A DNA stretch of 64,000 nt from Deltaproteobacteria bacterium RIFCSPHIGHO2_01_FULL_43_49 (GCA_001798075.1 MGRG01000011.1:1-64000), one strand, 5' to 3'; shown: positions 29,921 through 57,801, counted from the first letter of the stretch. Program-made: numbers and translations. The notes: generated by a model not told the origin, from the letters alone.

Positions 29921-29947
29921 GCAACTTTTTTTGAGGACTGTCGATAA
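29921..29947 (+). promoter_or_regulatory. GCAAC-N15-TCGATAA promoter-like motif
   Basis: GCAAC (29921-29925), a T-run, and TCGATAA (29941-29947) precede the surface-repeat gene by 28 bases. The same layout with the same 15-base gap occurs at 37455-37481, 51957-51983 and 57775-57801. Confidence 0.7.
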
Positions 29948-29975
29948 CAGGTTCGAAGATAAGAAGGAGGTCTTT

Positions 29976-30752
29976 ATGGCAAATTGCGGAGAAAAAAATG
30001 GTTTTAAAGTGAACGGAAGTTTTTGGCCACCTGCAATTCAAATTGGCTATGTGGATTCCCAAGAAGCTAATGAAACAGGCGTTTGTACCGAAACAGTTAA
30101 TGGAGTTCAGGTCGGCACCTACAACAATTTCAAAGACTCCTTTCAAGGTTTGCAAATCGGCCTTTTTAACAAGGGTGAGAATGTTAAAGGATTATCGCTT
30201 GGTATTGTGAATGCACATGAAAGAATAACCGGCCTTCATATTGGGTTATGGAATTATGTCAGGCAAGAAGCTAGAACAATAGGCATCGGCTTAGTAAACC
30301 AGTCGGATGGCAATTTAATTGGTGGGCATATTGGTTTGTTCAATCAAGCTGGAGAAATTATGCAAGGGTTCCAGCTCTCTTTTGCCAACTTGGTTGGTGC
30401 ACATAATAAAACTAATTACAACATCGCCATGAAAGGTTTTCAGGTTTCACTAGCTAATTCTTCTGTCCGTAATATGTCTGGTTTGCAAATTGGAATGTTT
30501 AATGTAGCCGAATTTATGATGGACGGAGTACAAATCGCAATTTTCAATGCGGGGGGATCAATCGTTGGTGGCATGAATGATGGTCTGCACATCGGTATTT
30601 TTAATAGTAGTGCAAATATGAACGGCAGAACAATTGGGATCCTGAATTTTTCAGGGCAATGCAAATATTTTACACCTCTTACGGGTTCCTCTTGCCTTTT
30701 TGGACCCGCAGAAAAACCCTATGTTACTCCTGTGTCAGATTGCTGTGGTTAA
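29976..30752 (+). CDS. LA_2272-like GxxIGxxN surface-repeat protein
   Basis: From the ATG after AAGGAGG the protein has 258 residues. It is mostly about ten copies of a 16-24-residue repeat with the core G-x-x-(I/L)-(G/S)-x-x-N: GLQIGLFN, GLSLGIVN, GLHIGLWN, GIGLVN, GHIGLFN, GFQVSLAN, GLQIGMFN, GVQIAIFN, GLHIGIFN, TIGILNF. Such repeats (LA_2272 type) are thought to form beta structures on surface or secreted proteins. There is no classical signal peptide. The tail has four cysteines. It is inserted between ribE and ribD and has the shared promoter motif. Confidence 0.8.
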   Translation: MANCGEKNGFKVNGSFWPPAIQIGYVDSQEANETGVCTETVNGVQVGTYNNFKDSFQGLQIGLFNKGENVKGLSLGIVNAHERITGLHIGLWNYVRQEARTIGIGLVNQSDGNLIGGHIGLFNQAGEIMQGFQLSFANLVGAHNKTNYNIAMKGFQVSLANSSVRNMSGLQIGMFNVAEFMMDGVQIAIFNAGGSIVGGMNDGLHIGIFNSSANMNGRTIGILNFSGQCKYFTPLTGSSCLFGPAEKPYVTPVSDCCG

Positions 30753-31006
30753 TGTCGGTAAACATCTTTGCGATCACCTATTCGATAAACTTGTATGAGT
30801 GACTCTTGATCATTGACCGTATAGAGAATCCGATAATTTCCTTTGCGAATACGATAACCTTCTTGTTGGGTAAGTTTTTTACATCCAGGGGGTCTTGGAT
30901 TATTCGCTAAATCATCCAGAACGTCGGCCATCAATCTTTGGACATCTTTAGAAAGTTTAAGAAACTCTCTTTTCGCACGAGTTTCCAATTCCACACAATA
31001 TTTCAT
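30749..31006 (-). CDS. RelE/ParE-type toxin
   Basis: The 85-residue protein has the RelE fold markers AKREFLKLSKDVQ, YRIRKGNYRILYTV and VYRIGDRKDVYRH. The basic core and C-terminal catalytic-type residues suggest mRNA cleavage at the ribosome. Its start overlaps the antitoxin stop by 4 bases, as usual in such pairs. Confidence 0.88.
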   Translation of the reverse strand: MKYCVELETRAKREFLKLSKDVQRLMADVLDDLANNPRPPGCKKLTQQEGYRIRKGNYRILYTVNDQESLIQVYRIGDRKDVYRH

Positions 31007-31233
31007 TTGTTAGATAGTTTTAATGATTTTTTGACTGCTTCCCAGGAGTGAAAGCCGCTGGCCTCTTTTATGGCTTCCTGAAGATCATGAGTATCCAATA
31101 AATCTTCTAGTTTCTCCCTCAAAGCTTGCTCGACGACAAAATTCTTTCGAAGCCCCAGTTGTTCACAAACCTGATCTAAGGTGTCCTTCAACTCCGATGG
31201 TAATTTGGTTGCAAAGGCAGATTCTCGAGACAT
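31003..31233 (-). CDS. Ribbon-helix-helix antitoxin of the RelE-type pair
   Basis: The 76-residue protein has an N-terminal CopG/RHH-like segment (FATKLPSELKDTLDQVCEQLGLRKNFVVEQAL) that would bind DNA and repress the pair. A helical C-terminus would wrap the toxin. It is located directly upstream of the RelE-like toxin gene. Confidence 0.85.
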   Translation of the reverse strand: MSRESAFATKLPSELKDTLDQVCEQLGLRKNFVVEQALREKLEDLLDTHDLQEAIKEASGFHSWEAVKKSLKLSNK

Positions 31234-31291
31234 ATGCTAAATCCTCTCAATCTAGATAAATCTTACTAAATCTTGAAAAATAAATCAAGTC

Positions 31292-32401
31292 CTACTTTTT
31301 GAGCTCTCCTTCAATCAAAACATTATCCCCCAATGTTTTTACAGAAAGGTTGTCCAGTTCGAGGGCATCTTTGAGGTTGCGGATATTGATTTCGGGGAGC
31401 CAGTCGAGGGCCTGACCCCCTAAAATTTTCGGTGCCAAAAAACAAACCAGATGATCCACTAACTTTTCGGAAATAAAAGCAGAAAAAATACTACTCCCCC
31501 CTTCTACCAAAAGATGAGTAACCCCCTTTTTTCCCAGGGCCCTTAACAATTCTCTTAAGTCGACACGGCCTGTCAGATCGGCCGGCAAGGTGAGGACCTC
31601 TGCCCCCAAATCGGTGAAGATTTTTTTCTTTTCCGAAGAGACCAACTGCGTTGTGGCCAAAACCACTTGCCTTCCCTTTACTTTAAAAAGTTGTCTGGTG
31701 GTTGGGCTCTCCAAAGAGGCATCGACAATAACCACAAGGGGTTGTTTTTCTGATTTTTTGCGGGGCAAACGAACGGTCAACAAAGGGTCATCGCGCTTGA
31801 GGGTCCCAGCCCCAATCAAAATGGCATCGACCTGATCTCTTAATTGGTGGACATATTGGCGGCTCAAAGTATTGCTGATCCAATGAGATTCCCCTGTTGC
31901 TGTGGCAATTTTCCCATCCAAAGACATGGCGACCTTGAGTGTGACAAAGGGAAGTTTCGTGGTGATAAATTTTTGGAAAGGAAGATTCAAATGAATGCAA
32001 GCATCATGCATCACCCCTTCGATCACTTCTACACCGGCATCCTTAAGCCAACGAATTCCTTGTCCGTTGACCTGCGGGTTGGCATCCCTGCAACCGATCA
32101 CCACTCTTTGAATACCCGCTTCGACAATTCGTGGCGCACACGGAGGTGTTTTTCCATGATGAGAACAAGGCTCCATCGTTACATACATGGTAGAACCATT
32201 TGCTTCATTTTTTTCCAATTTTTTGAGGGCGATAATTTCAGCGTGATCTTGACCCGCTTTGCGATGAAAACCCTCCGACAAAACTCGGCCTTGTCTTGTA
32301 ATGATGACACCAACAATTGGATTGGGTGAGGTTTGTCCCTTGGCCTTGAGGGCTAACTCAATGGCCCTTGCCATGAAATGGGCATGAGAAGGTCGTGCCA
32401 T
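31292..32401 (-). CDS. ribD: Bifunctional riboflavin deaminase/reductase
   Basis: The 369-residue protein has an N-terminal zinc deaminase (HAEIIALKK and PCSHHGKTPPC, about 50-90). The C-terminal reductase (about 150-365) has VTLKVAMSLDGKIAT and LVEGGSSIFSAF. It performs steps 2 and 3 of the GTP branch of riboflavin synthesis. The gene starts 4 bases after the nrdR stop. It is separated from ribE by the toxin-antitoxin pair and the surface-repeat gene. Confidence 0.96.
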   Translation of the reverse strand: MARPSHAHFMARAIELALKAKGQTSPNPIVGVIITRQGRVLSEGFHRKAGQDHAEIIALKKLEKNEANGSTMYVTMEPCSHHGKTPPCAPRIVEAGIQRVVIGCRDANPQVNGQGIRWLKDAGVEVIEGVMHDACIHLNLPFQKFITTKLPFVTLKVAMSLDGKIATATGESHWISNTLSRQYVHQLRDQVDAILIGAGTLKRDDPLLTVRLPRKKSEKQPLVVIVDASLESPTTRQLFKVKGRQVVLATTQLVSSEKKKIFTDLGAEVLTLPADLTGRVDLRELLRALGKKGVTHLLVEGGSSIFSAFISEKLVDHLVCFLAPKILGGQALDWLPEINIRNLKDALELDNLSVKTLGDNVLIEGELKK

Positions 32402-32405
32402 AAAA

Positions 32406-32864
32406 CTACTTTTGTTTGCCTAGCAAATCTTTGAGTTCCTTCATGAACTCATTAATATCTTTAAAAGAGCGATAGACCGAGGCAAAACGAACATAGGCCA
32501 CTTCGTCTAGGGAATGCAACTCTTCCATTACCTTCTCCCCTATTGTGGGGCTTTCGATCTCTGATAGGCCCAATTCCTGAATGGATTTAACGATCCGATC
32601 TGCGCAGGCTTCTAAAGTGGCAACACTGATCGGTCTTTTTTCACAAGCCTTGCGCATCCCTTGCAAAATTTTATTGCGCTCAAACGCCTCACGTCTTCCA
32701 TCTTTTTTGATCACGGCTGGCAAGACCTCTTCAACGTGTTCATAGGTTGTGAATCGCTCGCCACACTTTTCACATTCACGACGGCGACGGATAATCTCGC
32801 CATCTTGCGAATCTCTGGAGTCGATAACTTTACTTTCCGGATGTTTGCAAAACGGACAGTTCAT
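32406..32864 (-). CDS. nrdR: Transcriptional repressor NrdR
   Basis: From the ATG at 32864 the protein has 152 residues. It starts [19 protein letters not shown], with the second zinc pair in [16 protein letters not shown], followed by an ATP-cone. NrdR represses ribonucleotide reductase genes according to dATP/ATP. The frame is open further upstream but that part lies in a repeat. The glyA-nrdR-ribD order is conserved in deltaproteobacteria. Confidence 0.96.
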
Positions 32865-32870
32865 AGTTCG

Positions 32871-32902
32871 TACGATAGTACGTTGGTACGATAGTACGAT
32901 AG
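32871..32902. repeat. Tandem 8-mer TACGATAG, four units
   Basis: Four adjacent octamers, TACGATAG TACGTTGG TACGATAG TACGATAG, lie just upstream of the nrdR start and 3 bases from the end of glyA. Each GTAC junction is self-complementary. Confidence 0.8.
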
Positions 32903-32904
32903 TG

Positions 32905-34140
32905 CTAAGAATAAAATGGAAACCTTTGGCATAATTTTCTGACTTCGGACTGAATCGAAGACTGGCGTTGTGTATTATTAATATCTTTAAGGGTGTCAGC
33001 AATCCATTGTGCAATCTGCTGCATCTCTTTTTCTTTCATCCCGCGCGTTGTAACACACGGAGTCCCCAAACGAATGCCACTAGTGATAAATGGGGAACGG
33101 GTTTCTCTGGGAATTGTATTTTTGTTGACCGTAATACCGGCTCTTCCCAGGGCATCTTCTGCCTCTTTTCCGGTAATTCCCTTTTCGGTCAGATCGATTA
33201 AAAAAAGATGCGTGTCGGTGCCACCCGTTACAATTCGAAAACTAGATTCACTTAAAGACTTCGCCAAAGTGCGGCAGTTTTTTACAATCTGCTCGGCATA
33301 GGTTTTAAATTCTGGTTGTAAGACCTCTTTGAAGGCAACCGCTTTTGCGGCAATCACATGCATGAGAGGGCCACCTTGAATCCCAGGAAAAACAATTTTA
33401 TCGAGGGCTTTTGCAAATTCCTGCTTACACATGGCAATCCCACCGCGTGGGCCCCGCAAAGTTTTATGAGTTGTCGAAGTCACAAAATGACAATGAGGAA
33501 CAGGATCAGAGTGCAACCCTTTTGCAACAAGTCCTGCGGGGTGAGCAATGTCAGCCATCAGTAAAGCTCCAACTTCATCGGCGATCGTTCGAAATTGTTT
33601 AAAATCAATGTCTCTGGCATAAGCGGAGGCACCGGTGACAATCAGTTTTGGTTTGTGTTGGTGGGCAATCTGCTTGACCAAATCAAAATCAATTCTCTCG
33701 GTTTCAGGATCAACCCCATAAAACGCAACATTATAGAGCTGACCTGTAAAATTGACGGGTGAGCCGTGAGTGAGATGACCACCATGTTTGAGATCCATTC
33801 CTAAAATCGCATCGCCCGGCTTCAAAATGGAAAAATAGACTGCCATGTTGGCTTGAGACCCAGAATGCGGCTGCACATTCACATGCTCCGCTTTGAAAAT
33901 CTGTTTCAAGCGCTCACGGGCCAACTCTTCAGCTTGATCGACAAATTCACAACCACCGTAGTAGCGTTTGCCAGGATAGCCTTCCGCATATTTGACGGTC
34001 ATCACAGAGCCGAGGGCTTCTAAAACAGTAGGACTCACCAAATTTTCGGATGGAATCAATTCAATAGTCGTTTCCAAACGCTCGGTTTCGCTTTGAATCG
34101 ATTTATAAATTTCTGGATCAAAAGAGGCTAGCTTTGTCAT
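32905..34140 (-). CDS. glyA: Serine hydroxymethyltransferase
   Basis: The 411-residue PLP enzyme interconverts serine and glycine with tetrahydrofolate. Marks are [50 protein letters not shown], and the PLP lysine in [13 protein letters not shown]. The start overlaps the rpiB stop by 4 bases. The last residues come close to the octamer repeat. Confidence 0.97.
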
Positions 34141-34580
34141 TTGAGTAATGAATCGACTTTCTGAACCCTTGGGCCATGCCTCCCACCTTCAAAAGAGGTT
34201 TTCAAAAAGGTTTCTAAAAGCGATTGGGCTTGATGAACGGCACTCACTCTTGCCCCCAGACAAGCAATATTTGCGTTGTTGTGTTCACGAGAAAGCCTTG
34301 CATCGTCAAAACTTCTTAAAACCGCTGCTCGAACCTTCTTAACTTTATTTGCCGACATGCACATGCCGATTCCGGTTCCACAAACCAAAACCCCCCGATC
34401 GGCTTTCCCCTCAGAGACGGCTTTGGCTGCTTTTTCCGCAAAATCAGGATAATCGCATTTCTCTTCTGAGCTGCAGCCAAAATCCAAAACCTCATAACCT
34501 TGTCCCTGCAGATAAGACTTGAGGCTCTCCTTCATTTGGAAACCGGCATGATCTGCCGCAATGGCAATTTTAAATTTCAT
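34137..34580 (-). CDS. rpiB: Ribose-5-phosphate isomerase B
   Basis: The 147-residue protein has [16 protein letters not shown] at the start, [17 protein letters not shown] with the catalytic cysteine, and [15 protein letters not shown]. It interconverts ribose-5- and ribulose-5-phosphate. It is the first gene of the rpiB-glyA-nrdR-ribD run. Confidence 0.96.
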
Positions 34581-34681
34581 ATGGGTTTGCCTTTATGCAG
34601 GAAATTAAGAAAAATGCAAGTGTTACGAGGATTAGTGTTCCAGCTTGTCAGAAGAAGTCTATTTTGTTAGTTTGAACACCG

Positions 34682-35128: not shown

Positions 35129-35136
35129 GAGCTTTT

Positions 35137-35340: not shown

Positions 35341-35403
35341 AACGTTTGCAACCCAAAATGTTTAAGGGTGCCGGACACGATGTGGGATTCTTCATAAAGT
35401 TCC

Positions 35404-37437
35404 TTACCCATCCCACCCATCCCACTTACGCAGAACTTTTGGACCTCTACGTACAGCAGGTTTTTCTTTGATAACGGCGGGGGCCCAGCTAACAAGTTCA
35501 ATGGTGCCATCGGATTGGACTTTGCCAATGACATGAAAGACTTTTTTTTCTCGGAACTCGGAGAGAATTCCTTGAAGCTCCAGACCAGTGGCTTTTTCGG
35601 AAGCATGCCACATAACCCGTATTGGTTTCCCATTTAGTGTCCCCTTTAATTGGATCTTATAAGCATCTGGAAATCCAATGGGGACAATTCTGGCGGTATC
35701 GAACTGAACTCCATTCAACAAAACATAGCCTTCATGAGGTTTTTGCAAATCATCGACATCATCAACCGGATCGAGACGTTTTCCAAAAAATCCTGGTTTT
35801 TTGATTTTTCCATCGTGAAAAACCGCGCGGGGTCGATCTTTGCCCCATTTGAGTTGAGAAATATATGTCGTTGGCGATTTTTTGATCCAATACCATACAG
35901 TTTTTAATGCACTACCTATTTCTTTATACTCACCATATGCCCAAGAAGTGGCTACTCCTGCTACCACAAATGCAATGGCGAATACACCTGTTATAGCCCA
36001 AGACATTGAAAGTGAACCAGGCCCAGAAGGAAAAAGATCGTAACAAAATTTAGCTCCAATCGGTAATGAAATGACCCCCGCACCATGATAAAAAACTGAA
36101 AAAATATCATATGGCATTAAGGCAAGATCTTGATCCCCAACACGAAGCAATTCGCTCAATACTTCTGAAGCACTTAAATAAACACCGGTAGAGATTACTT
36201 GTGTCGTGGCAACTTCAATTGCCTGTGTTGGTCTACCCCAATCGTTCATTGCATCCAATCGCGTTTTGGGATCATCCGCAGTAATCTTGGAAACAAAACC
36301 CAAAAGCTCTTCATTGAAATGGCCTTGCTTTCGCAGTTCTTCAATCTGATCTTTGGGTCGATGAAAGGGGGTGTTCACCGAGGCTTCTCTTTCTTTTCCA
36401 AGCATTACATTAATGAGAACAAGCCCCGCTTGATAGATGTCGGTTGCTTTACTAGCCGATTTTCCATCCAACTGTTCTGGTGACATGTAATATACACTCC
36501 CCGCACCCAAACTTGAGCCACGGGTCTCCTCTGTTAAAATCTTGGCAATTCCAAAATCGGTTAGTTTAGCGTCGCCTGCTTTGGTCATCATGATATTGCT
36601 GAGTTTGATATCTCGATGCAAAATTCCCTTTTCATGCGCTGCTTGAATGGCAGATAACATTTGATCTTTAAGCTGAATGACTTCTGCTTCTGTAAAGATC
36701 TTTCTGGATTGAGGCGCATCTTTCGGCTGAATCAACTCTGCCAAACTTTGGCCATCCACATATTCAATAATCAAACTGATTTCAGGAAGCTCCCAGAGAT
36801 CTTTACTTTCTTTGATGCTAATATCGAGAAAACGTACTACATAAGGGTTATCTATATTCTTTAAGGCCAGTGCCTCTTTCCTGACCTCTTTCAAATCTTT
36901 GGCATCGCGCATTCTTCTGATAATGACCTTTTGATCTGTTTCAACATTGCGACCCAAATAAATTCTGGCTTCTCCGCCCCCTTTGAGTTCTTCTAACACT
37001 TCATAAGTTCCATTTTGCCCTTTAATCAATTTTGTTCCATTGGTTTTCCCCTCAAAAGGAAGGTTTAAAATCCCACCGGTTTCTCCTTGGGCATCTGGTT
37101 CTTCTATTCCTTGTGGAGCTTTCTCGGTCTGAACTGGTCCTTTGGCTAACATACCACCAGGTACCTGGTACCTGGTGGTAGGAGCGTCGGCGAAAAGGCG
37201 CGCAAAACGGTTGGCCCCTCTATGAATCCGATCTTGCTTAAGCCAAGCCAAAGCGGCTTCATCCAGCCCCTCAGCCGACCCCTCATCTACCACAGGGTAC
37301 CTGTTACTATATGGTAATGTACCGCCAGGTACCTGGTACCCTGTGGTAGTCAAAACCTGCTCCATAGCCCTATTTAGGGCTAAATCAGCAGCCGAGAGCT
37401 GCAATCCAACAACAGAATTTGCCCATAAATTCACCAT
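35404..37437 (-). CDS. Membrane Ser/Thr protein kinase with atypical ATP-binding site
   Basis: In this 677-residue protein, residues 1-125 form an N-terminal region whose first 30 residues resemble the start of the 57827 gene product. The kinase domain (about 145-400) has glycine loop GGGEARIYLG (153-162), HRDIKLSN (274-281), DFGIAK (294-299) and MSPEQ. The VAIK position reads VIIR, so the ATP-anchoring lysine is replaced by R174. Two hydrophobic segments lie at about 440-505, followed by a roughly 165-residue beta-rich domain. YQVPGG occurs twice (35-40 and 90-95), coded by DNA palindromes. The shared promoter motif lies 17 bases upstream. Confidence 0.85.
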   Translation of the reverse strand: MVNLWANSVVGLQLSAADLALNRAMEQVLTTTGYQVPGGTLPYSNRYPVVDEGSAEGLDEAALAWLKQDRIHRGANRFARLFADAPTTRYQVPGGMLAKGPVQTEKAPQGIEEPDAQGETGGILNLPFEGKTNGTKLIKGQNGTYEVLEELKGGGEARIYLGRNVETDQKVIIRRMRDAKDLKEVRKEALALKNIDNPYVVRFLDISIKESKDLWELPEISLIIEYVDGQSLAELIQPKDAPQSRKIFTEAEVIQLKDQMLSAIQAAHEKGILHRDIKLSNIMMTKAGDAKLTDFGIAKILTEETRGSSLGAGSVYYMSPEQLDGKSASKATDIYQAGLVLINVMLGKEREASVNTPFHRPKDQIEELRKQGHFNEELLGFVSKITADDPKTRLDAMNDWGRPTQAIEVATTQVISTGVYLSASEVLSELLRVGDQDLALMPYDIFSVFYHGAGVISLPIGAKFCYDLFPSGPGSLSMSWAITGVFAIAFVVAGVATSWAYGEYKEIGSALKTVWYWIKKSPTTYISQLKWGKDRPRAVFHDGKIKKPGFFGKRLDPVDDVDDLQKPHEGYVLLNGVQFDTARIVPIGFPDAYKIQLKGTLNGKPIRVMWHASEKATGLELQGILSEFREKKVFHVIGKVQSDGTIELVSWAPAVIKEKPAVRRGPKVLRKWDGWDG
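37149..37348. repeat. GGTACC-rich palindromes inside the kinase gene
   Basis: A 27-bp near-perfect palindrome (arms ACCACCAGGTACC and GGTACCTGGTGGT, 37149-37177 region) lies inside the open reading frame. A related stretch at about 37288-37348 has TACCACAGGGTACC and GGTACCCTGTGGTA as an inverted pair. They encode YQVPGG in two places and keep the frame. Confidence 0.75.
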
Positions 37438-37454: not shown

Positions 37455-37481
37455 TTATCGGTAGATTTCAAAAAAAGTTGC
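37455..37481 (-). promoter_or_regulatory. GCAAC-N15-CCGATAA promoter-like motif
   Basis: On the minus strand GCAAC (37477-37481), a T-run and CCGATAA (37455-37461) end 17 bases before the kinase start. The spacing is identical to the copies at 29921, 51957 and 57775. Confidence 0.7.
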
Positions 37482-41207: not shown

Positions 41208-41411
41208 AGGGACGGGTCCCGCGCTTGCCGTGTGATTGGTTATCTTATGAACCCTAACATTAGTCAGGGGGGAACCATGTTGCTGTTTTAGGCTTCCTGC
41301 AAAAAGGCTTGAGCAGGCTTGCTCACCACAGCAAGGGACAGCTCCCTGAAGATACTTATCGGTTCTAAGATAAGCACATTCAAGCACGCGCATCGCAGGT
41401 TGTCCCGTCGC
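41208..41411 (-). ncRNA. ssrS: 6S RNA
   Basis: A roughly 200-nt stretch lies between zapA and fau, exactly where proteobacteria keep 6S RNA. The ends pair (GACGGGAC... with ...GACCCGTC). The conserved AGGAAGCCTAAAACAGC strongly resembles GAGAAGCCTTAAAACTG of E. coli 6S RNA, and a GAGCAAGCCTGCTC hairpin precedes it. 6S RNA mimics an open promoter and holds sigma-70 RNA polymerase in stationary phase. Exact ends are estimates. Confidence 0.88.
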
Positions 41412-41938: not shown

Positions 41939-42013
41939 AATCCCCAGCGCTAGGGGTGCCTCGTGCTGAGAAATACCCTTAGAACCTGATCCGGGTAATA
42001 CCGGCGGAGGGAA
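41939..42013 (+). promoter_or_regulatory. TPP riboswitch (THI element)
   Basis: The conserved core reads GGGGTGCC, CTGAGAAATACCC, TTAGAACCTGATC, CGGGTAATACCGGCG, GAGGGAAG, all hallmarks of the thiamine pyrophosphate aptamer. The 3' end of the aptamer itself contains the GGAGGGAAG ribosome binding site of thiS, whose GTG starts 2 bases later. Translation of thiS should therefore be shut when TPP is bound. Confidence 0.96.
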
Positions 42014-42015
42014 GC

Positions 42016-42228
42016 GTGGAAAAGACAATTCAAATTCTTTTAAATGGTCAACCACAGACCGTTATAACCAATCTCTCGATTAACCAGCTTTTAGACCAAT
42101 TCAAAATTGAGCAAAAACACGTCGCAGTGGCTCATAATGACCAAATACTCCCTCTTTTACAAAGGCAGATAACTTATTTAAAAGAAGGCGACAAAATTGA
42201 AATTATTAGGGCAGTAGCGGGGGGGTAA
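42016..42228 (+). CDS. thiS: Thiamine biosynthesis sulfur carrier ThiS
   Basis: The 70-residue ubiquitin-like carrier ends IIRAVAGG; the C-terminal Gly-Gly becomes the thiocarboxylate. The GTG start directly follows the riboswitch. It is the first gene of thiS-thiG-thiH-thiC. Confidence 0.95.
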   Translation: MEKTIQILLNGQPQTVITNLSINQLLDQFKIEQKHVAVAHNDQILPLLQRQITYLKEGDKIEIIRAVAGG

Positions 42229-47935: not shown

Positions 47936-50900
47936 TTAATGAGAAGTTTTTACGGCTTGAATTAATGGATCGGCTTGGTCACCTTTGCCTAATCCGACTA
48001 ACAAGCTTCTGACCTGAGCGTAAAAATGATCTGCAGTATGGCGCGTACTAAAACGAATCTCTTCTCCCTGTAACCATCGTGTAAGAGGAGACCGATCATC
48101 TTGCTGTAGAACCCCATCGAGTTCTGTCTTCCGTGGAAGCACACCGCTAAACTTCAGGGCTACAGCCCTCCTTGCCTCCAACAATAATCGCTCCTTGGCT
48201 GTTTTTGTAGAGAGACTCCAACCTTGGCTTTCAAAAACCGCATCCACGATCCAGTCGTCCACTTCTTGTGCTTTTCTTCCCAACCCAACCAACAGACTTC
48301 TGACCTGATTGTAAAAATTATCAGCAGTATGGCCTTTACTAAAACGAACCCCTTCTCCCTTTAACCAGCGTGTAAGATAAGATCGAGCTTCTTGCATTAA
48401 AACCCCATCGAGACCCGGATTACGTGGAAGCACACCACCAAACTTAAGAGCTACAGCCCTCCTTGCCTCCAACAAGAGCTGCTCTTGGGCTGTTTTTGCA
48501 GAAGTATTCCACCCTTGGCTTTCAAAAACCGCACCCACGATCCACTCTTCCACTTCTTGTGCTTTTCTTCCCAACCCAACCAATAAACTTCCGACCTGAG
48601 AGTAAAAACTATCGGCAGTATTGCTCTGACTAAAGCGAATCTCTTCTCCCTGTAACCATCGTGTAAGAGGAGAGTGAGCAAGTTGCACTGAAACCCCCTC
48701 GAGACCTGGCCTGTTAGTCAAAACACCACCAAACTTGAGAGCTACAGCCCTCCTTGCCTCCAACAAGAGCTGCTCTTGGGCTGTTTTTGCAGAGTGACTC
48801 CAATCCTGGCTTTCAAAAACCGCATCCACGATCCAGTCGTCCACTTCTTGTGCTTTTCTTCCCAACCCAACCAACAGACTTCTGACCTGAGTGAAAAAAT
48901 CGTGGGTAGTATAGCCCCTACTAAAACGAACCTCTTCTCCCTTGAACCATCGTCTAAGAGGAGATTGAACGTTTTGCCCTGAAACCCCCTCGAGACCTGG
49001 CCTGTTAGGCAAAACACCACCAAACTTGAGAGCTACAGCCCTCCTTGCCTCCAATAACAATCGCTCCTTGGCTGTCTTTGCAGAAAGACTCCAACCCTCT
49101 CGATCAAAAAGGTATTTCATTAATCTCTCATATTCATCCTTCGCCTTGGCTTGTTTTTCTCCTTGTTGTTCAGCCCTCACACCAAAATAAAGTGCCATCC
49201 CCCTCCATATATTTCTCCACTGTATTTCACCCAACACCCCCCGCGACAGACTCTGTAAACTGGTACGGGTGATCGTGACCTGTTGGATCACGAGTTCCCC
49301 CTTGATGGTTCCCTCCCACTTTTCATAAAAGGCCAATGCCCCTTGAACGATCGCTATGTCTGCCGGTGTCACCGCTTCACCCCCCAGCCCCCTCTCCTCA
49401 TTATAAAGCTCTACAAAAATATCCCTGTCTTGATATAACAATGTCGCCAGTCTCCTCAAAAACCAACGGGCATTGACCCACCCTTTGCCTTGTAAAATGG
49501 CTTCCATCTCCTCTACCGGCAGGCCCAAATCAATAGCCATTGTCTCCACATCCTCTCCATACCGATTCTCCAAAACCTCCCACAACTTCGCCACCAACGG
49601 CTTTTGCAATTCTGCTTGAGCGGGTTTTGCTAATCTTCGCCGGGTCGGCAGTAATTCTCCCAAGTCTTTATGTTCGACCTTTTGTCCTTCTCGATCGATT
49701 TCAGAAACAACTTCGCCAGACATTGCATCGAATAATTCTCCTGGCTTTGCCTGGGTATGTCCAGCTACCCCCATCAAATCGCCATAAAACATCAAAGCGC
49801 GATCCATACTGTGATAGCGATCTAGAATTTCAAAAATGATCTTTGGTTTATCCAACAACAGTTCACCTCTCCGGCTCACTTCCTTGGGCCCCCTCCTGTT
49901 TAAACGTCCTCGCTCCTGACCTTTTTTAAATCTCGAAAAAGTGGGCCTACTTCCCAACAAATGAGTGAACATATATAAATCGGCCCCCTCCAGCCAGACA
50001 TCTACATTGAAGACCGCTTCGACCTCTCCCTTCTCAACGGCTGAAAGGATCTTTTCCCGAATCTCTTTTTTAGTCTCACCCGAGACAATCGCAATAACCC
50101 CGTCTATCTCTCCTTGTTTATAAGCCTCCAAACTCTTCTCCAATTCCTTCCTCCCAATGTGGCCCCGCTCTCCTCCAATCATTGTCAGATTTCTTTTTCT
50201 TAAGCCTTCCCCTTCTTGACCAAAGTAGTCTACATAGCCCTTGGCCATCATCTTTGCGTGGCGCAAATCTGCCGCGAAAGTTAAGACGGCTTCCAACGCC
50301 TCTTTGCCACTTGGGCTCTTGTCTGGTCTTCTCAATCCACTTTTCTCCAGAGCTTCAAAGAGTCTCTGGTTTCTTTCCGGATAATCCAATAACGTACTGA
50401 CCAATTCTCTGGTTTGAAAATCATTTGCGGACTTACTAATTTTTAGCTGGCTTAAATCAATCCCTGGCACTTTCACTAGATATGTCCTGGGGGTTACCCC
50501 CGATTGCATCAAGACATGTTCTGCAATCCTCACAATATAGGGCCCTTCTTTGCCGGTAGGGGTCGCTGTAAAACCGATACGATAAAAATTGGGGCTCACT
50601 TCTCTTAAAGTTCGGATCAACTCCTTCCAACTCTCTTTGCTAGTATGGGGACTTATCTCCAAATGATGAATTTCATCCACCGCGATCATCGCCAGTTTTC
50701 CTGACTGGCCAAGTGCTTTTCTCAGTTCCTTTTCAAAGCGCTCTCTCTTTTCTAAAGTGTTGACCGAAGGAATGCTGACCACCACAACATCCCCTCTTAA
50801 ATTTTTATCCTCAGCCTTATATTCGGTCACCCGAAGCCTCCTTCCAAACCTCCTTTTAAAATAAGGGCTCAATAAACGGACGACTTTGAGATTTTGCTCA

Positions 50901-51937
50901 TGAATCTGTTCCGTATGATTCAAAATAATAAATTTATCTCCCAGTTTAAATAAACCCAACTCCATGGCGGCTGCAAATGAGGCGACCATCACCCGTGTCT
51001 TGCCTCCTCCGGTCGGCATGACAATAGTCCCCACCAATAATTGCTCGGCTAGCTTCTCATTTTCCTTCAACTGCTCTTGCTGCATCTTCAATACCCCTTT
51101 GACCTTGTTCAAGGTCATCACTTGGTGGGCTCTCAAATGGAGGGCTCTTCCATAACCCACATCGTGATTGATGAGGGCATCGAGAATGGCTCTCTTCACT
51201 CCTTTCTTAATAGAAAGTTTGGGGGCTGTTGGCGGATGGATGGACTCCCTAAGTCCGATTCCGGACAAAAACTTCTCCTCAACCGGCTCGGAATATATGG
51301 AGGCCCCCAAATTCAAGACACGGTCCAATAAAATCCGCTCTCCCAAAATAATATCTTCTCTATACTGATCTCTTTCTTTGCCATGCTGTGTCTTGAATTG
51401 CGCGATCTCTCCTTCCCAAAATTTCAGTCGCTCTTGAATCAGACCCATCTCTTTTGTGTAACCTTCTCGAATCGTGGGGGATAGACTGGCTTCAACCACT
51501 CCGTAGCGCTCTGTAACCCTACCAAACTCTTTGGCCACCAAATCTAAATACCCTTCCGGACTGATTGCTCCAGTCTCCAAATCGGTCTCTTGGGGAATAC
51601 CGTTTTCACGAAGTGGGGGGAGGGATTCATCTGTCTTCTGTTTGAATAGACGGCTCGCTACCAACAAACTCCTCAATTCACTGACCAGATTACTCCTCAT
51701 TGCACTCGCCTGATTGACTCGCCCTTGCCGAACCGCTTGGACCATGGCCTGACCTTTTTGCATTAAATCCTCTTGGTCGATTCCTGGAACCTCACTCACC
51801 CCCCCGATGAGCAGACCCAAACCTGCTGCATTCCCCTCCTCTGCAAGGCTCTGCAAATCATGGCTTAAAAGATACGAAGCGGTTTGGTAGATCGCCCCAG
51901 ACGCCATGGAACTTAAAAAACCACCCGAAAAAGGCAT
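47936..51937 (-). CDS. Giant SF2 helicase-like protein with four 97-residue C-terminal repeats
   Basis: The 1333-residue protein has a helical N-terminal region (about 1-270), then a superfamily 2 helicase core. Motif I is MPTGGGKTR (near 305), motif II is DEIHH (near 415), motif III is FTATPTG, and motif VI is QERGRLNRRG (near 690). An HTH-rich middle follows. Residues about 948-1333 are four tandem repeats of 97 residues (ARRAVALKFGGVL, SPLTRWLQGEEIRFS, QVRSLLVGLGRKAQEV, WIVDAVFESQ). I know no family with this layout. It has the shared promoter motif 19 bases upstream and an AGAGGTG ribosome site. It is followed by nothing on its strand. Confidence 0.85.
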   Translation of the reverse strand: MPFSGGFLSSMASGAIYQTASYLLSHDLQSLAEEGNAAGLGLLIGGVSEVPGIDQEDLMQKGQAMVQAVRQGRVNQASAMRSNLVSELRSLLVASRLFKQKTDESLPPLRENGIPQETDLETGAISPEGYLDLVAKEFGRVTERYGVVEASLSPTIREGYTKEMGLIQERLKFWEGEIAQFKTQHGKERDQYREDIILGERILLDRVLNLGASIYSEPVEEKFLSGIGLRESIHPPTAPKLSIKKGVKRAILDALINHDVGYGRALHLRAHQVMTLNKVKGVLKMQQEQLKENEKLAEQLLVGTIVMPTGGGKTRVMVASFAAAMELGLFKLGDKFIILNHTEQIHEQNLKVVRLLSPYFKRRFGRRLRVTEYKAEDKNLRGDVVVVSIPSVNTLEKRERFEKELRKALGQSGKLAMIAVDEIHHLEISPHTSKESWKELIRTLREVSPNFYRIGFTATPTGKEGPYIVRIAEHVLMQSGVTPRTYLVKVPGIDLSQLKISKSANDFQTRELVSTLLDYPERNQRLFEALEKSGLRRPDKSPSGKEALEAVLTFAADLRHAKMMAKGYVDYFGQEGEGLRKRNLTMIGGERGHIGRKELEKSLEAYKQGEIDGVIAIVSGETKKEIREKILSAVEKGEVEAVFNVDVWLEGADLYMFTHLLGSRPTFSRFKKGQERGRLNRRGPKEVSRRGELLLDKPKIIFEILDRYHSMDRALMFYGDLMGVAGHTQAKPGELFDAMSGEVVSEIDREGQKVEHKDLGELLPTRRRLAKPAQAELQKPLVAKLWEVLENRYGEDVETMAIDLGLPVEEMEAILQGKGWVNARWFLRRLATLLYQDRDIFVELYNEERGLGGEAVTPADIAIVQGALAFYEKWEGTIKGELVIQQVTITRTSLQSLSRGVLGEIQWRNIWRGMALYFGVRAEQQGEKQAKAKDEYERLMKYLFDREGWSLSAKTAKERLLLEARRAVALKFGGVLPNRPGLEGVSGQNVQSPLRRWFKGEEVRFSRGYTTHDFFTQVRSLLVGLGRKAQEVDDWIVDAVFESQDWSHSAKTAQEQLLLEARRAVALKFGGVLTNRPGLEGVSVQLAHSPLTRWLQGEEIRFSQSNTADSFYSQVGSLLVGLGRKAQEVEEWIVGAVFESQGWNTSAKTAQEQLLLEARRAVALKFGGVLPRNPGLDGVLMQEARSYLTRWLKGEGVRFSKGHTADNFYNQVRSLLVGLGRKAQEVDDWIVDAVFESQGWSLSTKTAKERLLLEARRAVALKFSGVLPRKTELDGVLQQDDRSPLTRWLQGEEIRFSTRHTADHFYAQVRSLLVGLGKGDQADPLIQAVKTSH
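47939..49096. repeat. Four tandem 291-bp coding repeats
   Basis: The 3' end of the helicase gene consists of four direct repeats of 291 bp (the last slightly shorter), starting at about 49096, 48805, 48514 and 48223 on the minus strand. They are highly alike in both DNA and protein, which suggests recent duplication or gene conversion. Confidence 0.85.
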
Positions 51938-51956
51938 ACTTACACCTCTGTATATG

Positions 51957-51983
51957 TTTTCGGCAAAAACCCAAAATAGTTGC
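51957..51983 (-). promoter_or_regulatory. GCAAC-N15-CCGAAAA promoter-like motif
   Basis: On the minus strand GCAAC (51979-51983) and CCGAAAA (51957-51963) are 15 bases apart, ending 19 bases before the helicase start. The -10 half has one base unlike the CCGATAA of the other copies. Confidence 0.6.
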
Positions 51984-52036
51984 TTGACATGGATTTATTT
52001 TAAAGATACCTTTAAAGGGTCTTTTAAAGGTCATTT

Positions 52037-52581: not shown

Positions 52582-52620
52582 ATTAAAAAACGTAAATCAG
52601 TTTGGGTGGGGTAAAAACAA

Positions 52621-53517
52621 TTACCTTTTGAGCTTCCCTAATGTCTCTGCAGCATTTTTTGCAAGAACACGATCGCTAGACAAAACAGCTATTTTTGTTA
52701 AAGCACGGATTGCCAACACTTTTGCCCTTTTCGTTTTTCCCTTTAAAGCCAAATGCTCCAAGGCTTTAACCGACTTCGGATTGATCTGAACGACAAACGA
52801 CAACCCTACGGAGGATGCTTCCACAAACTCATTGGATTGAACAGCCAACTCCGCTAAAGCCCACGCAGCTCCTTCATTGATTTTACCTGCCATAATCATT
52901 AGGGGAATATGGGATTCCTCAAAAAGATCAATACGCTCTTTCACCAGTTCCCACAAAGCCCATGCGGAATAATAATTTACCCTGGCAGCAGCCAAGAGAA
53001 GTAAAAGATGAGTTGATGTAAAAAGATTAGCATAGTCTATTACAACGTCTCTCAGTATCTCTCCCGCATTTTCATCCACCTCAGATTCTTCTATCATTTT
53101 TTTTATTAACACTATCAACTCATCGGTTGGTTTTGCTTCTTGAGGTTTTCTTTTTGGAAAAACAGGGAATGGAAAAATCTGTGCTGAAGGGGAAGATTGC
53201 TTTCCTGCACAAGCTCCTAAAAAATTTCTTCTTAAGCGTTTCTGGGCCTCAATAAATTTGCCTTCAGGAATGGCATGAATTTGAGCGGCCAATGTTTTTG
53301 TTCTTTGTTCGGAAGGAATGGATTGCCCACTTTCTAAGCAACGCCATCTTATGTAGCTCGTTTCTAAATCATCCGGCGACATTCCTTGAGACTCGAGCAC
53401 CTCAAACAGAGCTTTCATATCAATGAGTCGCATCTGTCCCGCGGTCAAACTTTGGGCTAGCTCTGCTTGTGATGCAAAAAGAGGTGTTACAAATAAAGTG
53501 CCTCCCACTGGATTCAT
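52621..53517 (-). CDS. Unknown helical-repeat protein downstream of pgi
   Basis: The 298-residue protein has an N-terminal region (LFASQAELAQSLTAGQMRLID). A Pro-rich linker at about 115-130 (FPFPVFPKRKPQ) follows. The C-terminal part is made of helical pairs resembling HEAT/ARM-type repeats (ARVNYYSAWALWELVKE, KINEGAAWALAELAVQ, KSVKALEHLALKGKTKRAKVLAIRALTKIA). The ATG lies 2 bases after the pgi stop, so expression is probably coupled. The family is not recognised. Helical repeats usually mean protein-protein contact. Confidence 0.7.
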   Translation of the reverse strand: MNPVGGTLFVTPLFASQAELAQSLTAGQMRLIDMKALFEVLESQGMSPDDLETSYIRWRCLESGQSIPSEQRTKTLAAQIHAIPEGKFIEAQKRLRRNFLGACAGKQSSPSAQIFPFPVFPKRKPQEAKPTDELIVLIKKMIEESEVDENAGEILRDVVIDYANLFTSTHLLLLLAAARVNYYSAWALWELVKERIDLFEESHIPLMIMAGKINEGAAWALAELAVQSNEFVEASSVGLSFVVQINPKSVKALEHLALKGKTKRAKVLAIRALTKIAVLSSDRVLAKNAAETLGKLKR

Positions 53518-53519
53518 CA

Positions 53520-54629
53520 CTAAATCCTCCTCTTAATCAACTCTACCGCCGGTTGATCATAAGGGTTGATTCCCATTAAATGACCCGTGAAGGCGGTTTG
53601 AATTTGGTAGCTCATCAATAATTCTCCTAAAGTTTGGGGGCTTAAATCATCAAGGTGGATCGAAACACAAGGACATTTTTTCTCGTGCAAAGCTTGAGCG
53701 GTGGCACTGGCTTCGCGAAGCAAGAGTTGGCCCAGGGGGTCTTTTGCGTGTGTTTTTACCGTCATGATCGTGACAACTTTGTCTTTAGGGCCATCCAAAA
53801 AAAGTTGGGCCAAAGAATGTTGATCTTGCGGCCCTAAAGCAACCAGGGGAGTTTGGCCCTTCCCTTCTTTGCCTAAGCTCTCTCCCCAAAGTTGGGCATA
53901 CCATCTGCCAAAATCATAGAGACAATCGGAATAAGGCATCATGACGGAGATGGTTTTGCCGTGATCTTTATTGAGGAGATAATGAAGGAGGCCATTTTTG
54001 TGGGCATTTTCTGGGTTGCTTAAGGCCTTTCTGGCTCCCTCCAAAAGAGAATCAATATCAACACCCAAAAACGCCAGGGGGAAAAGTCCCACGGCTGAAA
54101 AAACAGAAAAACGCCCGCCGACATTTTTGGGAATGGGAAGATGGGTCAGTTTTTTCTCACGAACCGCGGCATATAATTTGCCATCCCCTTCTTCTGTCGT
54201 GACAACCATTTGTACTTTATCAAACTTTGGAGCAAAATGTTCAAAGAGTGTAGTTGTTTCAATCGTGTTCCCCGATTTGCTAATCACATTCAAACAAGTT
54301 TTGGAAAGATCAAACGTTTCTAGTAATGCCGCCACACTTTTGGGATCCGGGCTTTCCTGAATCCACAAACGTGATTTTATTTTGGGGGGCAACAAGACTT
54401 GCGCCAGGGCTTTCAGACCTTGCGAAGAGCCTCCGATTCCCAGCACGATCAAGTTTTCAAATTTTTCGGAGAACTTTTTGGCGACCTCTTTGATTGTTGC
54501 GACTCCTTCTTTGTCGAAGGGAAGATCTCGCCACCCCTCATTTGCCAAAGGAAAAGGCTCTGGCTTGAGCTTGCCTTCTGGAATACCCGACTTTGAAAAA
54601 TCAAACTGAATCATCTTTTTCTTTGTCAT
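53520..54629 (-). CDS. pgi: Glucose-6-phosphate isomerase, short form
   Basis: The roughly 369-residue protein has VLGIGGSSQGLKAL, VISKSGNTIETTT, GGRFSVFSAVGLFPLA, the catalytic GPQDQHSLAQLFLDGP and a C-terminal NPYDQPAVELIK. It is shorter than the 440-550 residues of most isomerases but keeps the active site. The first ATG codons (54641, 54629) fall inside a palindromic repeat, so the original start may have been replaced; an ATG at 54614 is also possible. Confidence 0.9.
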   Translation of the reverse strand: MTKKKMIQFDFSKSGIPEGKLKPEPFPLANEGWRDLPFDKEGVATIKEVAKKFSEKFENLIVLGIGGSSQGLKALAQVLLPPKIKSRLWIQESPDPKSVAALLETFDLSKTCLNVISKSGNTIETTTLFEHFAPKFDKVQMVVTTEEGDGKLYAAVREKKLTHLPIPKNVGGRFSVFSAVGLFPLAFLGVDIDSLLEGARKALSNPENAHKNGLLHYLLNKDHGKTISVMMPYSDCLYDFGRWYAQLWGESLGKEGKGQTPLVALGPQDQHSLAQLFLDGPKDKVVTIMTVKTHAKDPLGQLLLREASATAQALHEKKCPCVSIHLDDLSPQTLGELLMSYQIQTAFTGHLMGINPYDQPAVELIKRRI

Positions 54630-54660
54630 TGCGAGCCCCAAAGGGGCGAAGCAATCTCTC
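54626..54660. repeat. TCATTGCGAG..CGAAGCAATCTC palindromic repeat, left copy
   Basis: TCATTGCGAG, a CCCC/GGGG core and CGAAGCAATCTC form a unit widely seen in bacterial genomes. Its inverse partner is at 54942-54974, on the other side of the GIY-YIG gene. Confidence 0.8.
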
Positions 54661-54662
54661 TA

Positions 54663-54956
54663 CTATAAAACCTTGTAAAGATCATCCCAACTCGAATTCA
54701 TTTTTTCAATCAACCCAATTTTCTTCTGTCTCGATCCTGCCTTAATCTGTTTTTCTCTGCTAATTGCGTATTTAACGTCATCAAATATTTCATAATACAC
54801 CAACTTTTTTAAATTATATTTAGATGTAAATCCGTTAATCAATTTATTTTTATGCTCATAAACTCTGCGAACTAAATCATTTGTAACGCCTGTATACAAA
54901 ACCCTATTATCTTTATTTGTCATGATATAAACGTAAAAATTAGATTGCTTCGTCAC
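54663..54956 (-). CDS. GIY-YIG nuclease-domain protein between inverted repeats
   Basis: The 97-residue protein has YVYIMTNKDNRVLYTGVTNDLVRRVYEHK, the GIY-YIG core (YVY...YTG) with the catalytic Arg region, followed by KLVYYEIF and a conserved AISREKQIKAGSR. It is a UPF0213/YhbQ-like single-domain nuclease. The GTG start (overlapping the pyrC stop) and the 3' flank lie in palindromic repeats of opposite orientation, so gene and repeats look like one mobile unit between pyrC and pgi. AT content is higher than in the neighbours. Confidence 0.88.
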   Translation of the reverse strand: MTKQSNFYVYIMTNKDNRVLYTGVTNDLVRRVYEHKNKLINGFTSKYNLKKLVYYEIFDDVKYAISREKQIKAGSRQKKIGLIEKMNSSWDDLYKVL

Positions 54957-54974
54957 TTCGTTTCTCGCAATGAC
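54942..54974. repeat. AGATTGCTTCG..CTCGCAATGACG palindromic repeat, right copy
   Basis: The inverse of the 54626-54660 unit. It supplies the last codons of pyrC (SSLRETK, stop) and the first codons of the GIY-YIG gene. Confidence 0.8.
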
Positions 54975-56245
54975 GAATCGTAAACAACCTTTCCACCGTA
55001 AAGCGTGTACAAAACTTTTCCCTTTAGTTTCATTTCAGTAAAAGGGGTGTTGCGGCTTTTGGAATGAAATTTTTCCGGATCGATGGTGACGGATCTGTTG
55101 GGATCAAAGATGGTGATGTCGGCAGGGCTTCCCTTTTTGAGTGTCCCCCCTTTGAGCTTGAAAGCTTTTGCAGGGCCAACTGTTAAAAGTGAAATCAATT
55201 TTTTTAATGTTAACTGCTTTTTAGAAACAAATCCCAACAAAACGGGCAAAGCTGTTTCCAAACCGATCAAACCGACATTGGCACAACCGAAACCTACATT
55301 TTTTTCATCTTCAGAGTGAGGGGCGTGGTCGGTTGCAATCGCATCGACGGTTCCATCGTTGAGGGCCGCTAACAAAGCTTGAGAGTCTTGTTTTGTCCTC
55401 AATGGCGGATTTACTTTTGCATTGGCATTGTAGCCAAGACAAGTTTCATCGGTCAGTGTCAAATGATGGGGAGTGACCTCGCAGGTTACGGATAACCCTT
55501 CGAGTTTGGCTCTTCGAACCATTTCAATCCCCTCTTTTGTACTGACATGAGCCACATGGAGATGATGTTTGGTTAATTTTGCCAGCAAAATATCGCGCTG
55601 AATCATTGCCTCTTCGGCGGCGGCTGGGATTCCAGTCACACCCAATGAAGTAGAAATCTTTCCCTCATGCATACAGCCACCTTCTGACAACGTTAAATCT
55701 TCTGCGTGAGTAATGACAGGGACTTTAAATGTTTTGGCATATTCGAGGGCGTGGCGCATCAGTTTGCCATTCATAACCGGCCTGCCGTCATCAGAAATCG
55801 CTACACAACCGGCCTCCACCATCTCCCCAATCTCTGCCAACTCTTCTCCTTTGAGGCCTTTAGAAACAGCGCCAACCGGAAGCACTCGAGCCAAACCCGC
55901 TTCTTTGGATTTCTTGAGAATCATTTGTGTCACTGAAGCGTTGTCGTTGACTGGATTGGTGTTGGCCATGCAAAGGATCGTTGTAAAACCCCCAGCCACC
56001 GCTGCTTGGCTGCCGGAAGTAATATCTTCACGATATTCAAAACCAGGTTCTCTCAAATGGGTGTGGAGGTCGATGAAACCTGGCGAGATAATGGCTCCTT
56101 TGGCATCAACGATTTCATAACCGCTTGTCGGTTTTTTAAAGTGCCCAATTTCACGGATTAGACCATTTTCGATCAAAATGGAAAAATTCCCATCGATATT
56201 TTGTGAGGGATCGATGACACGACCATTGATGATTGCTATTTTCAT
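54953..56245 (-). CDS. pyrC: Dihydroorotase
   Basis: The protein is 430 residues from ATG 56245 ([13 protein letters not shown]), which overlaps the pyrB stop as ATGA; an upstream ATG at 56260 lies within pyrB. The zinc sites are [33 protein letters not shown] and [12 protein letters not shown]. It closes carbamoyl-aspartate to dihydroorotate. The last residues come from the repeat. Confidence 0.96.
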
Positions 56246-57165
56246 CCTTCTCCTCCACACAACAAATAAAGCAGCGCCATGCGCACCGCCACCCCATTGG
56301 TTACTTGATCCAAAATGACTGAGTGGGGTCCATCAGCCACATCCGGCGCAATCTCCACGCCGCGGTTGACGGGCCCTGGGTGCATAATCACCACATCTTT
56401 TTTGGCATGTTTCATTGTCTCTTTGTTGAGTCCGAAAAATCGTGCGTATTCTCTAAGCGATGGAAAAAGGGATTCTGCTTCTCTTTCTCTTTGAATGCGT
56501 AGCATCATAATCACATCAGCTTGGGGAATCACTTCGCGAATGTCATAAGAAACTTTGACCGAATATTGGCTAATTTCCGCAGGAATCATTGAGGCGGGTC
56601 CGGCCACTTGCACTTTTGCCCCCATTTTTGTCAGAAGCAAAATGTTGGAACGAGCAACCCGTGAATGAAGAATATCACCAATGATAGCGACAGTGAGCCC
56701 TTGAACTTTCTTTTTGACCTGCAAAATGGTCATCAAATCGAGCAAGGCTTGTGTTGGGTGTTCATGGGTGCCGTCGCCGGCATTGATTACCGGACATTTC
56801 ACCGCTTTGGCTAAAAGATGAGGCATACCCGATTCCTGATGACGAACGACCAGCAAATCGGGATTCATTGCCTCCAAATTGCGAACGGTGTCGAGGAGGC
56901 TTTCTCCTTTTGAAAGCGAACTTCCCGAAGAAGAAATACTGAGTGTATCGGCTGAGAGTCTTTTTGCCGCCATTTCAAACGACGCGCGTGTGCGAGTGGA
57001 AGATTCAAAAAATCCCAAAATCACCGTTTTGCCGCGAAGGGCCGGGACTTTTTTGATGGGGCGTTTGGAAATTTCCTGAAGATTTTCCGCCGTTTTCAAA
57101 ATCAAATCGACGTCTTTTTTGCTGAGGTCTTTGACACTTAAGATGTGCTTTACTGAAAGGCTCAT
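56242..57165 (-). CDS. pyrB: Aspartate carbamoyltransferase catalytic chain
   Basis: The 307-residue protein has the carbamoyl-phosphate loop [39 protein letters not shown] and [12 protein letters not shown]. No pyrI regulatory chain is adjacent. It lies between pyrR and pyrC, with 4-base overlaps on both sides. Confidence 0.97.
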
Positions 57166-57722
57166 TGAATATGCATTGTTTGCCTGTTCGAAAAATTCTC
57201 CTTCAAGATAACCTGATTCTTGCCATCACTCTCTTTAAGCATTACTTTGATAACCTCTTCAGCATGTGTGGCGATCTTTTTGCCCACATAATCGGCCTGA
57301 ATGGGAAGCTCGCGCCAACCCCTGTCAACCAAAACCGCCAATTTAATGAACTTGGGTCTGCCAAAGTCAATCAACGCATCAAGAGCTGAGCGGATCGTGC
57401 GCCCTGTATATAAAACATCGTCCACCAGGATAATGCCGAGGCCGTTAATATTAAATGGGATCTCCGTTTTTTGAACGATTGGTTGATCCCCCACTTCCGA
57501 CAAATCATCGCGGTACAAATTGATATCTAGAATGCCAACCTTCGGGGCTTTTTTGGTGAGTGTGCCAATCTGTTTCGCAAGCCAATGGGCCAAGGGAACA
57601 CCTCGGGTGCGAATCCCAACTAAGATAACCTCTCCTAAATTGTCGGCAACGATTTGTTTGGCCATGGACTTTAAGGTTTTGTCCATGTCGGCTTCAGTCA
57701 TGAGGTGCTTTTCTTTAGCCAT
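57162..57722 (-). CDS. pyrR: Bifunctional pyr operon regulator / uracil phosphoribosyltransferase
   Basis: The 186-residue protein has the PRPP-binding motif [37 protein letters not shown], and [19 protein letters not shown]. PyrR binds pyr mRNA at low PRPP/high UMP in Gram-positives; here the first gene of pyrR-pyrB-pyrC. The leader holds a GGGGGTT..AACCCCC hairpin (57741-57763), but I do not see the canonical PyrR binding loop. Confidence 0.93.
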
Positions 57723-57740
57723 ATCGAACTGTTAGGTCGC

Positions 57741-57763
57741 GGGGGGTTGTAGTCAGAACCCCC
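57741..57763 (-). promoter_or_regulatory. Leader hairpin upstream of pyrR
   Basis: GGGGGTT and AACCCCC pair around an 8-base loop in the 5' leader of pyrR on the minus strand. On the plus strand it lies just before the shared promoter motif of the 57827 gene. It could be a regulatory hairpin or an insulator. Confidence 0.4.
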
Positions 57764-57774
57764 TCAAAAAGCAA

Positions 57775-57801
57775 GCAACTTTTTTGAAAAATTGCCGATA
57801 A
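57775..57801 (+). promoter_or_regulatory. GCAAC-N15-CCGATAA promoter-like motif
   Basis: GCAAC (57775-57779), a T-run, and GCCGATAA (57794-57801) lie 25 bases before the 664-residue gene. GCCGATAA is the exact sigma-28 (FliA) -10 consensus. Confidence 0.75.

Follow-up and report, generated by a model that had tools for sequence, protein, structure and literature searches.

A dispersed promoter motif and a candidate sigma-28 variant encoded in a type III secretion operon of Deltaproteobacteria bacterium RIFCSPHIGHO2_01_FULL_43_49

A bipartite motif, GCAAC-N15-CCGATAA, lies directly upstream of four genes in a 64,000-nucleotide stretch of the genome of Deltaproteobacteria bacterium RIFCSPHIGHO2_01_FULL_43_49 (GCA_001798075.1, MGRG01000011.1:1-64000; this whole stretch is referred to below as the window), and an earlier note had proposed that it marks a dispersed regulon with a sigma factor of its own. 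That proposal is now strongly supported, with about 100 sites in the genome and a candidate sigma factor at hand. It is probable, on the evidence set out here, that a sigma-28 variant dedicated to a type III secretion system (T3SS) reads the motif and switches on a set of late genes whose products are mostly candidate secreted substrates. The most likely reader of the motif is a FliA/WhiG-type sigma factor, to judge from the geometry of the motif, a change in the recognition helix of the protein, the operon in which its gene lies, and the co-occurrence of the two; the gene products, for their part, are probably exported by the T3SS encoded in that operon.

The genome (G000) comprises 2.23 Mb in 15 contigs, and the reversed pattern served as the chance control for the counts. 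The strict pattern gave 43 matches and its reverse none, while GCAACTTTTT-N8-TGCCGATAA, with up to three mismatches, gave 99 sites against 3 reversed; in a second genus of the same family the count at up to three mismatches was 95 against 1. A chance origin of the motif is excluded. The conserved −35 block proved to be longer than noted earlier, extending over AAGCAACTTTTTT, with a −10 block of TGCCGATAAC; the logo reads A-A-G-C-A-A-C-T-T-T-T-T-T, then a poorly conserved spacer, then T-G-C-C-G-A-T-A-A-C, and shows an initiator-like T(A/G)(A/G) signal 7–9 nucleotides (nt) 3' of CCGATAA, where the start site would be expected. The flagellar promoter of FliA (sigma-28) is TAAA-N15-GCCGATAA. Set in this register the motif becomes GCAA-N15-GCCGATAA, with the spacing and −10 element of sigma-28 and a different −35, so that the likeness to sigma-28 already remarked for the −10 extends to the geometry of the whole motif. 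The canonical TAAA-N15-GCCGATAA form shows no enrichment in G000 (one match, one reversed). An open reading frame (ORF) of at least 60 amino acids (aa) begins with ATG 5–50 nt downstream of 77 of the 103 sites in the genome, as against 14% of random positions; a scan for such an excess before start codons had been suggested as the test on which the motif might fail, and the motif came through it. On this sequence evidence the repeated motif is a real promoter.

The same promoter pattern extends across a whole class of related bacteria. GCAAC-N15-YCGATAA occurs in 46 of 46 class genomes, at 4–66 matches each, and the sum of 1264 compares with 10 for the reversed control; 14 genomes from outside the class hold between 0 and 2 matches each. 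The relatives within the class are deposited as 'Deltaproteobacteria' metagenome-assembled genomes. The class probably corresponds to GTDB phylum UBA10199, and the literature naming UBA10199 does not seem, judged by titles and abstracts, to deal with such a promoter system.

A search of the genome for sigma region 4, in keeping with the recommendation that its FliA and extracytoplasmic function (ECF) factors be sought, returned RpoD, an RpoH-like factor, two ECF-like factors and one factor of the FliA/WhiG type, together with a 1085-aa protein. The gene for the FliA/WhiG-type factor (C7:28533–29354), whose product is 273 aa long, lies outside the window and inside a non-flagellar T3SS operon. 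TIGR02479 is the best model for its product (E=7.4e-37), the score of 127 bits falling below the cut-off of 189.6, and its neighbours in the PDB are WhiG and FliA. An AlphaFold model based on 12 sequences has a mean predicted local distance difference test (pLDDT) score of 59 and a predicted template-modelling score (pTM) of 0.40, and gives weak fold matches in the PDB to WhiG, FliA and other sigma factors, at template-modelling scores of about 0.3. Homology over regions 2–4 places the candidate in the FliA/WhiG (sigma-28) family, and it is present at 55–81% identity in most genomes of the class. Its region 4.2 recognition helix reads KSW(T/V)(S/C)R in 30 of 30 class sequences (KSWTSR in G000), as against ESRVSQ in five of five FliA/WhiG sequences. 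By these sequence features the candidate is a sigma-28 variant rather than a canonical FliA, because GCAAC is found in all genomes of the class, the altered helix is uniform, and the TAAA form of the promoter is not enriched. A uniform change in the −35 helix alongside a uniform change in the −35 element and an unchanged −10 is what would be predicted of a re-specified sigma-28. The 1085-aa protein, at C6:80096–80212 (L036), shows a weak match to sigma region 4 and has long repeats.

The operon that houses the candidate sigma gene encodes, in order, SctT, SctS, SctR, FliO-, FliN- and FliM-like proteins, a FliK/SctP-like protein, SctN, SctL and a FliG-like protein, after which comes the sigma gene itself. 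Upstream of the sigma gene are genes for SctJ, a CdsG/SctY-like chaperone and a YscD/FHA protein, and SctV is encoded farther away. SctT was assigned by Pfam, and SctR and SctS by sequence and position only. SctV scores above the hrcV cut-off and under that for FlhA; the best match of the SctJ-type protein is YscJ/SctJ, at a score below the cut-off; and SctN passes the cut-offs for both SctN and FliI clade 2. From the sequences of SctV, SctJ, SctN and SctRST, the operon is that of a non-flagellar T3SS. Both the gene order and the placement of the sigma gene are repeated wherever, among the other class loci read, this block is present, and in Schekmanbacteria the sigma gene likewise adjoins those for SctJ and SctN. 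The only FHIPEP protein of G000 scores above the SctV cut-off and below that for FlhA, and the genome is therefore taken to encode no flagellum. Four class genomes carry an additional, higher-scoring gene of the FlhA type, with a conventional FliA-like gene beside it in three of them. The apparatus operon itself does not bear the motif (the best matrix score in it is 8.5), and therefore the arrangement would follow the pattern seen in flagella, in which the machine comes first and the late genes are then expressed by a FliA-type sigma. There is no secretin in the T3SS cluster, and needle and translocon proteins had no dedicated search; three secretins are encoded elsewhere in the genome, one of them within a Tad pilus cluster (C10:62000–68500, L207) that specifies a Flp-like pilin, TadE, RcpC/CpaB, the secretin, an ATPase and TadB/C-like proteins. 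Divergent from the sigma/T3SS operon is a gene for an NtrC-type sigma-54 response regulator (C7:29851–31281; L210:1452–2882), a possible upstream regulator of the T3SS apparatus by its position, and a sigma-54-like site at C7:30009 falls within this gene.

The genes behind the promoters were described earlier as giant or surface-type. This does not describe the regulon well: product length has a median of about 340 aa (range about 60–1526 aa), most products have no Sec signal, about half have N-termini that are poor in Lys and Arg and rich in Ala, Gly and Ser, and the candidate sigma gene lies in a T3SS operon. At most one Lys or Arg is found in the first 30 residues of 51% of the products, as against 13% of the other proteins of the genome (p=5e-9), and the figure for products in the second genus is 44%. 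N-termini of this kind are compatible with type III signals, although they are not proof of them. Few of the 98 products considered, about half of which were scanned for domains, have recognised domains; these include a Ser/Thr kinase, a helicase and its paralogue, an ADP-ribosylglycohydrolase, two FGE-sulfatase-like proteins, an M20 peptidase, HEAT repeats, a methyltransferase, a GGDEF protein, a PP2C phosphatase and an OmpA-domain protein. Only 6 of the 29 products of the second genus (G003) have a homologue in the regulon of G000, and this low sharing resembles the turnover typical of effector-like repertoires; the GGDEF protein has been kept together with its motif in the second genus.

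In the mechanism that we propose, the motif would be the promoter for an alternative RNA polymerase holoenzyme containing the FliA/WhiG-type factor from the T3SS operon. This factor would use its region 2 to recognise the −10 element typical of sigma-28, (T)GCCGATAA; its altered region 4.2 helix, in which KSWTSR takes the place of ESRVSQ, would have GCAAC rather than TAAA as its target, with the spacing at its normal 15 bp. The holoenzyme would pass over the apparatus genes and transcribe about 100 dispersed 'late' genes, largely for candidate secreted substrates, but also for some lipoproteins, for signalling proteins such as the GGDEF protein and the PP2C phosphatase, and for at least one small RNA. 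The order of events would match that of the flagellar class III genes, with cargo expressed once the export machine has been built.

Several observations weigh against this proposal. The genome also encodes the two ECF-like factors; about half of the products show no N-terminal bias, and a minority have N-termini of the Sec or lipoprotein type. Four of the 46 class genomes (G020, G021, G022 and G038) have the motif without a convincing copy of the FliA-type sigma, and the ATPase of the non-flagellar T3SS was likewise not found in the assemblies of G020, G021 and G022; the T3SS operon of G020 is masked and G038 is 73% complete, but the absences in G021 and G022 still lack a full explanation. 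In Schekmanbacteria a relative of the sigma factor carries an almost identical helix (KSWVSRLHSRA), although the genome holds a single motif match. Schekmanbacteria were accordingly set aside as outside support for the link between helix and motif, the sigma being present there and the motif not. In two genomes of the class the T3SS region contains extended stretches of N (L106:5002–20000 and L081:15249–20702), and these limit the comparison of sigma and motif co-occurrence.

Under one alternative the motif would be the promoter of an ECF factor, of which the genome has two candidates, and the FliA-type sigma would serve some other regulon. The −35 consensus of ECF promoters is GGAACTT, which the −35 block GCAACTTTT and its T-run resemble, and the earlier note had read the −35 in just this way. 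We regard this as improbable: both the −10, GCCGATAA, and the spacing in GCAA-N15-GCCGATAA are those of sigma-28, the −35 helix of the FliA-type sigma is uniformly changed, and the only such sigma in the genome would be left with no recognisable targets, since there is no enrichment of the canonical sigma-28 promoter. A FliA/WhiG-type factor with a changed −35 helix fits the motif, and no ECF factor need be invoked. Still less credible, and in our view very improbable, is the idea that the motif is an operator for an activator or repressor, or else a mobile repeat. The −35-like block does extend over 11 bp with very high conservation, and the gene for the NtrC-type regulator adjoins that for the sigma; but the motif consists of two blocks at fixed spacing, oriented towards the downstream gene and placed right before start codons, its −10 matches that of sigma-28, and its conservation is confined to the two blocks, with spacer and flanks that vary as those of repeat copies would not.

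Of greater weight, if still unlikely, is the view that a sigma-28 variant does read the motif but governs general surface, developmental or stress genes, only a few of whose products pass through the T3SS. The minority of lipoproteins and Sec-type products, the OmpA domain, the GGDEF protein retained with its motif in the second genus, and the limitation of Lys/Arg-poor N-termini to about half of the products would all be in keeping with it. Set against these are the location of the sigma gene in a T3SS operon throughout the class, an N-terminal bias that is strong, common to otherwise unrelated proteins and rare in the background, and the difference in most products between genera, as for effector-like repertoires. 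These same features lead us to prefer a T3SS-dedicated sigma-28 variant that directs the expression of candidate secreted substrates.

The four sites in the window, which are its only strict matches, have a spacing of exactly 15 and lie where they were first placed. Site 1, GCAACTTTTTTTGAGGACTGTCGATAA (29921–29947, + strand), is an exact match with a matrix score of 36.8 and stands 28 nt from the ATG at 29976 of a gene (29976–30752, +) for a 258-aa protein of unassigned function and without a Pfam match; an alternative ORF of 273 aa for this gene, from TTG at 29931, would have its start within the promoter. Site 2, GCAACTTTTTTTGAAATCTACCGATAA (37455–37481, − strand; exact match, score 37.4), precedes by 17 nt the ATG of a gene (35404–37437, −) for a 677-aa protein with a Lys/Arg-poor N-terminus and a Ser/Thr kinase domain at residues 145–397 (PF00069, E=1.9e-40). 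Site 3, GCAACTATTTTGGGTTTTTGCCGAAAA (51957–51983, − strand; match, score 31.3), is 19 nt from the ATG of a gene (47936–51937, −) whose 1333-aa product, also with a Lys/Arg-poor N-terminus, has by Pfam a ResIII/DEAD helicase domain, followed by C-terminal repeats; a paralogue of 1448 aa encoded on contig C8, with 64% identity, has the same promoter. Site 4, GCAACTTTTTTGAAAAATTGCCGATAA (57775–57801, + strand), is an exact match identical to the consensus, with a score of 38.7, and lies 25 nt from the ATG of a gene (57827–59821, +) for a 664-aa protein of unassigned function, without a Pfam match and with no Lys or Arg at all in residues 1–30. With a matrix built from all the genome sites, the next best position in the window scores 8.9, as against 31–39 for these four. 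Holding 4 of about 100 genome sites, the window is not a special region. It also contains a 6S RNA (41212–41404, −) and, adjoining it, a thiamine pyrophosphate riboswitch (41942–42029, +) upstream of thiamine genes including that for ThiC.

Two kinds of RNA element are associated with the motif. One site has no ORF after it, but a stretch of about 55 nt that ends in a strong GC hairpin and a T-run, beside tRNA-Phe in both genera; this candidate small RNA begins CAGUAGUGAGAGGUUUGAAA and ends in a terminator (L121:1243–1340 and L177:1501–1590). A structured leader of about 100 nt, beginning GACGACCGAGGYCGGGAACCC and with hairpins of varying length, has five copies in the genome (C5:20228, C12:34349, C14:72708, C14:82475 and C14:215189; L150, L028, L043 twice and L124), and all five lie directly 3' of these promoters, most of them ending in a sequence nearly identical to the GATAACTATAGTAG start region. 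An Rfam search of the leaders found no family; they may act as regulatory RNA leaders, or represent a mobile element with these promoters as its target. The small-RNA site and the leader are independent hints of a promoter role for the motif.

Comparison with known systems suggests, as the best reading, a system like HrpL in role and like FliA/WhiG in ancestry. It shares with the flagellar FliA regulon the sigma family, the −10, the 15-bp spacer, the tie to a type III export machine and the late-gene logic, and differs in its −35 of GCAAC(T6), its KSWTSR helix, the lack of a flagellum and its roughly 100 dispersed, mostly unknown genes. WhiG of Streptomyces, which governs a sporulation regulon, is likewise a FliA-type sigma used outside flagella and is among the closest solved structures, but has the canonical recognition helix. 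HrpL, by contrast, is an ECF sigma. In plant-pathogenic Pseudomonas and Dickeya its hrp box marks dispersed type III effectors (PMC2957411, PMC3879358). The likeness lies in a dedicated alternative sigma and a promoter box marking dispersed T3SS genes, the products here being candidate effectors by their N-terminal bias; HrpL also drives apparatus genes, whereas here the sigma is of the FliA type and the motif is missing from the apparatus operon. Chlamydial sigma-28 is a FliA-type sigma in non-flagellated bacteria that possess a T3SS (PMC12282069), as here, but the present regulon is large and has a changed −35. The statement in the earlier note that no such system is known was therefore too broad, HrpL and the hrp box being a functional analogue; it holds in the narrower sense that the literature searched contains no FliA-type sigma dedicated to the genes of a non-flagellar T3SS. 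In Myxococcus xanthus, a 'needleless' T3SS* works with a Tad-type (Kil) pilus in predation (PMC12075869; the Myxo group of PMC3459982). The present system resembles it in having a non-flagellar T3SS, no secretin found in the cluster and a Tad pilus cluster in the same genome, a likeness of gene content and not of a tree, and is unlike it in its FliM-, FliN-, FliO- and FliG-like parts, its operon-borne sigma and the absence of known predation. Tentatively, and with a little less than even confidence, we suggest that throughout the class a re-specified sigma-28, its gene lying in the operon for an early-type and possibly needleless T3SS, drives in each genome about 100 cargo genes, most of them lineage-specific, which might encode prey-directed effectors delivered with the Tad pilus.

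The system appears to offer a natural case of a sigma-28 that has kept its −10 preference while its −35 preference has apparently changed, alongside a uniform change in the helix. A simple DNA rule would then list the probable T3SS cargo from sequence alone, in a class from which none of the relatives retrieved has been cultured. If our reading is true, the promoter by itself is enough to draw up a cargo list for a machine with no listed substrates so far, and this bears on what the 'needleless' T3SS* of Myxococcus delivers, the present system being one of similar appearance with a cargo list that can be read.
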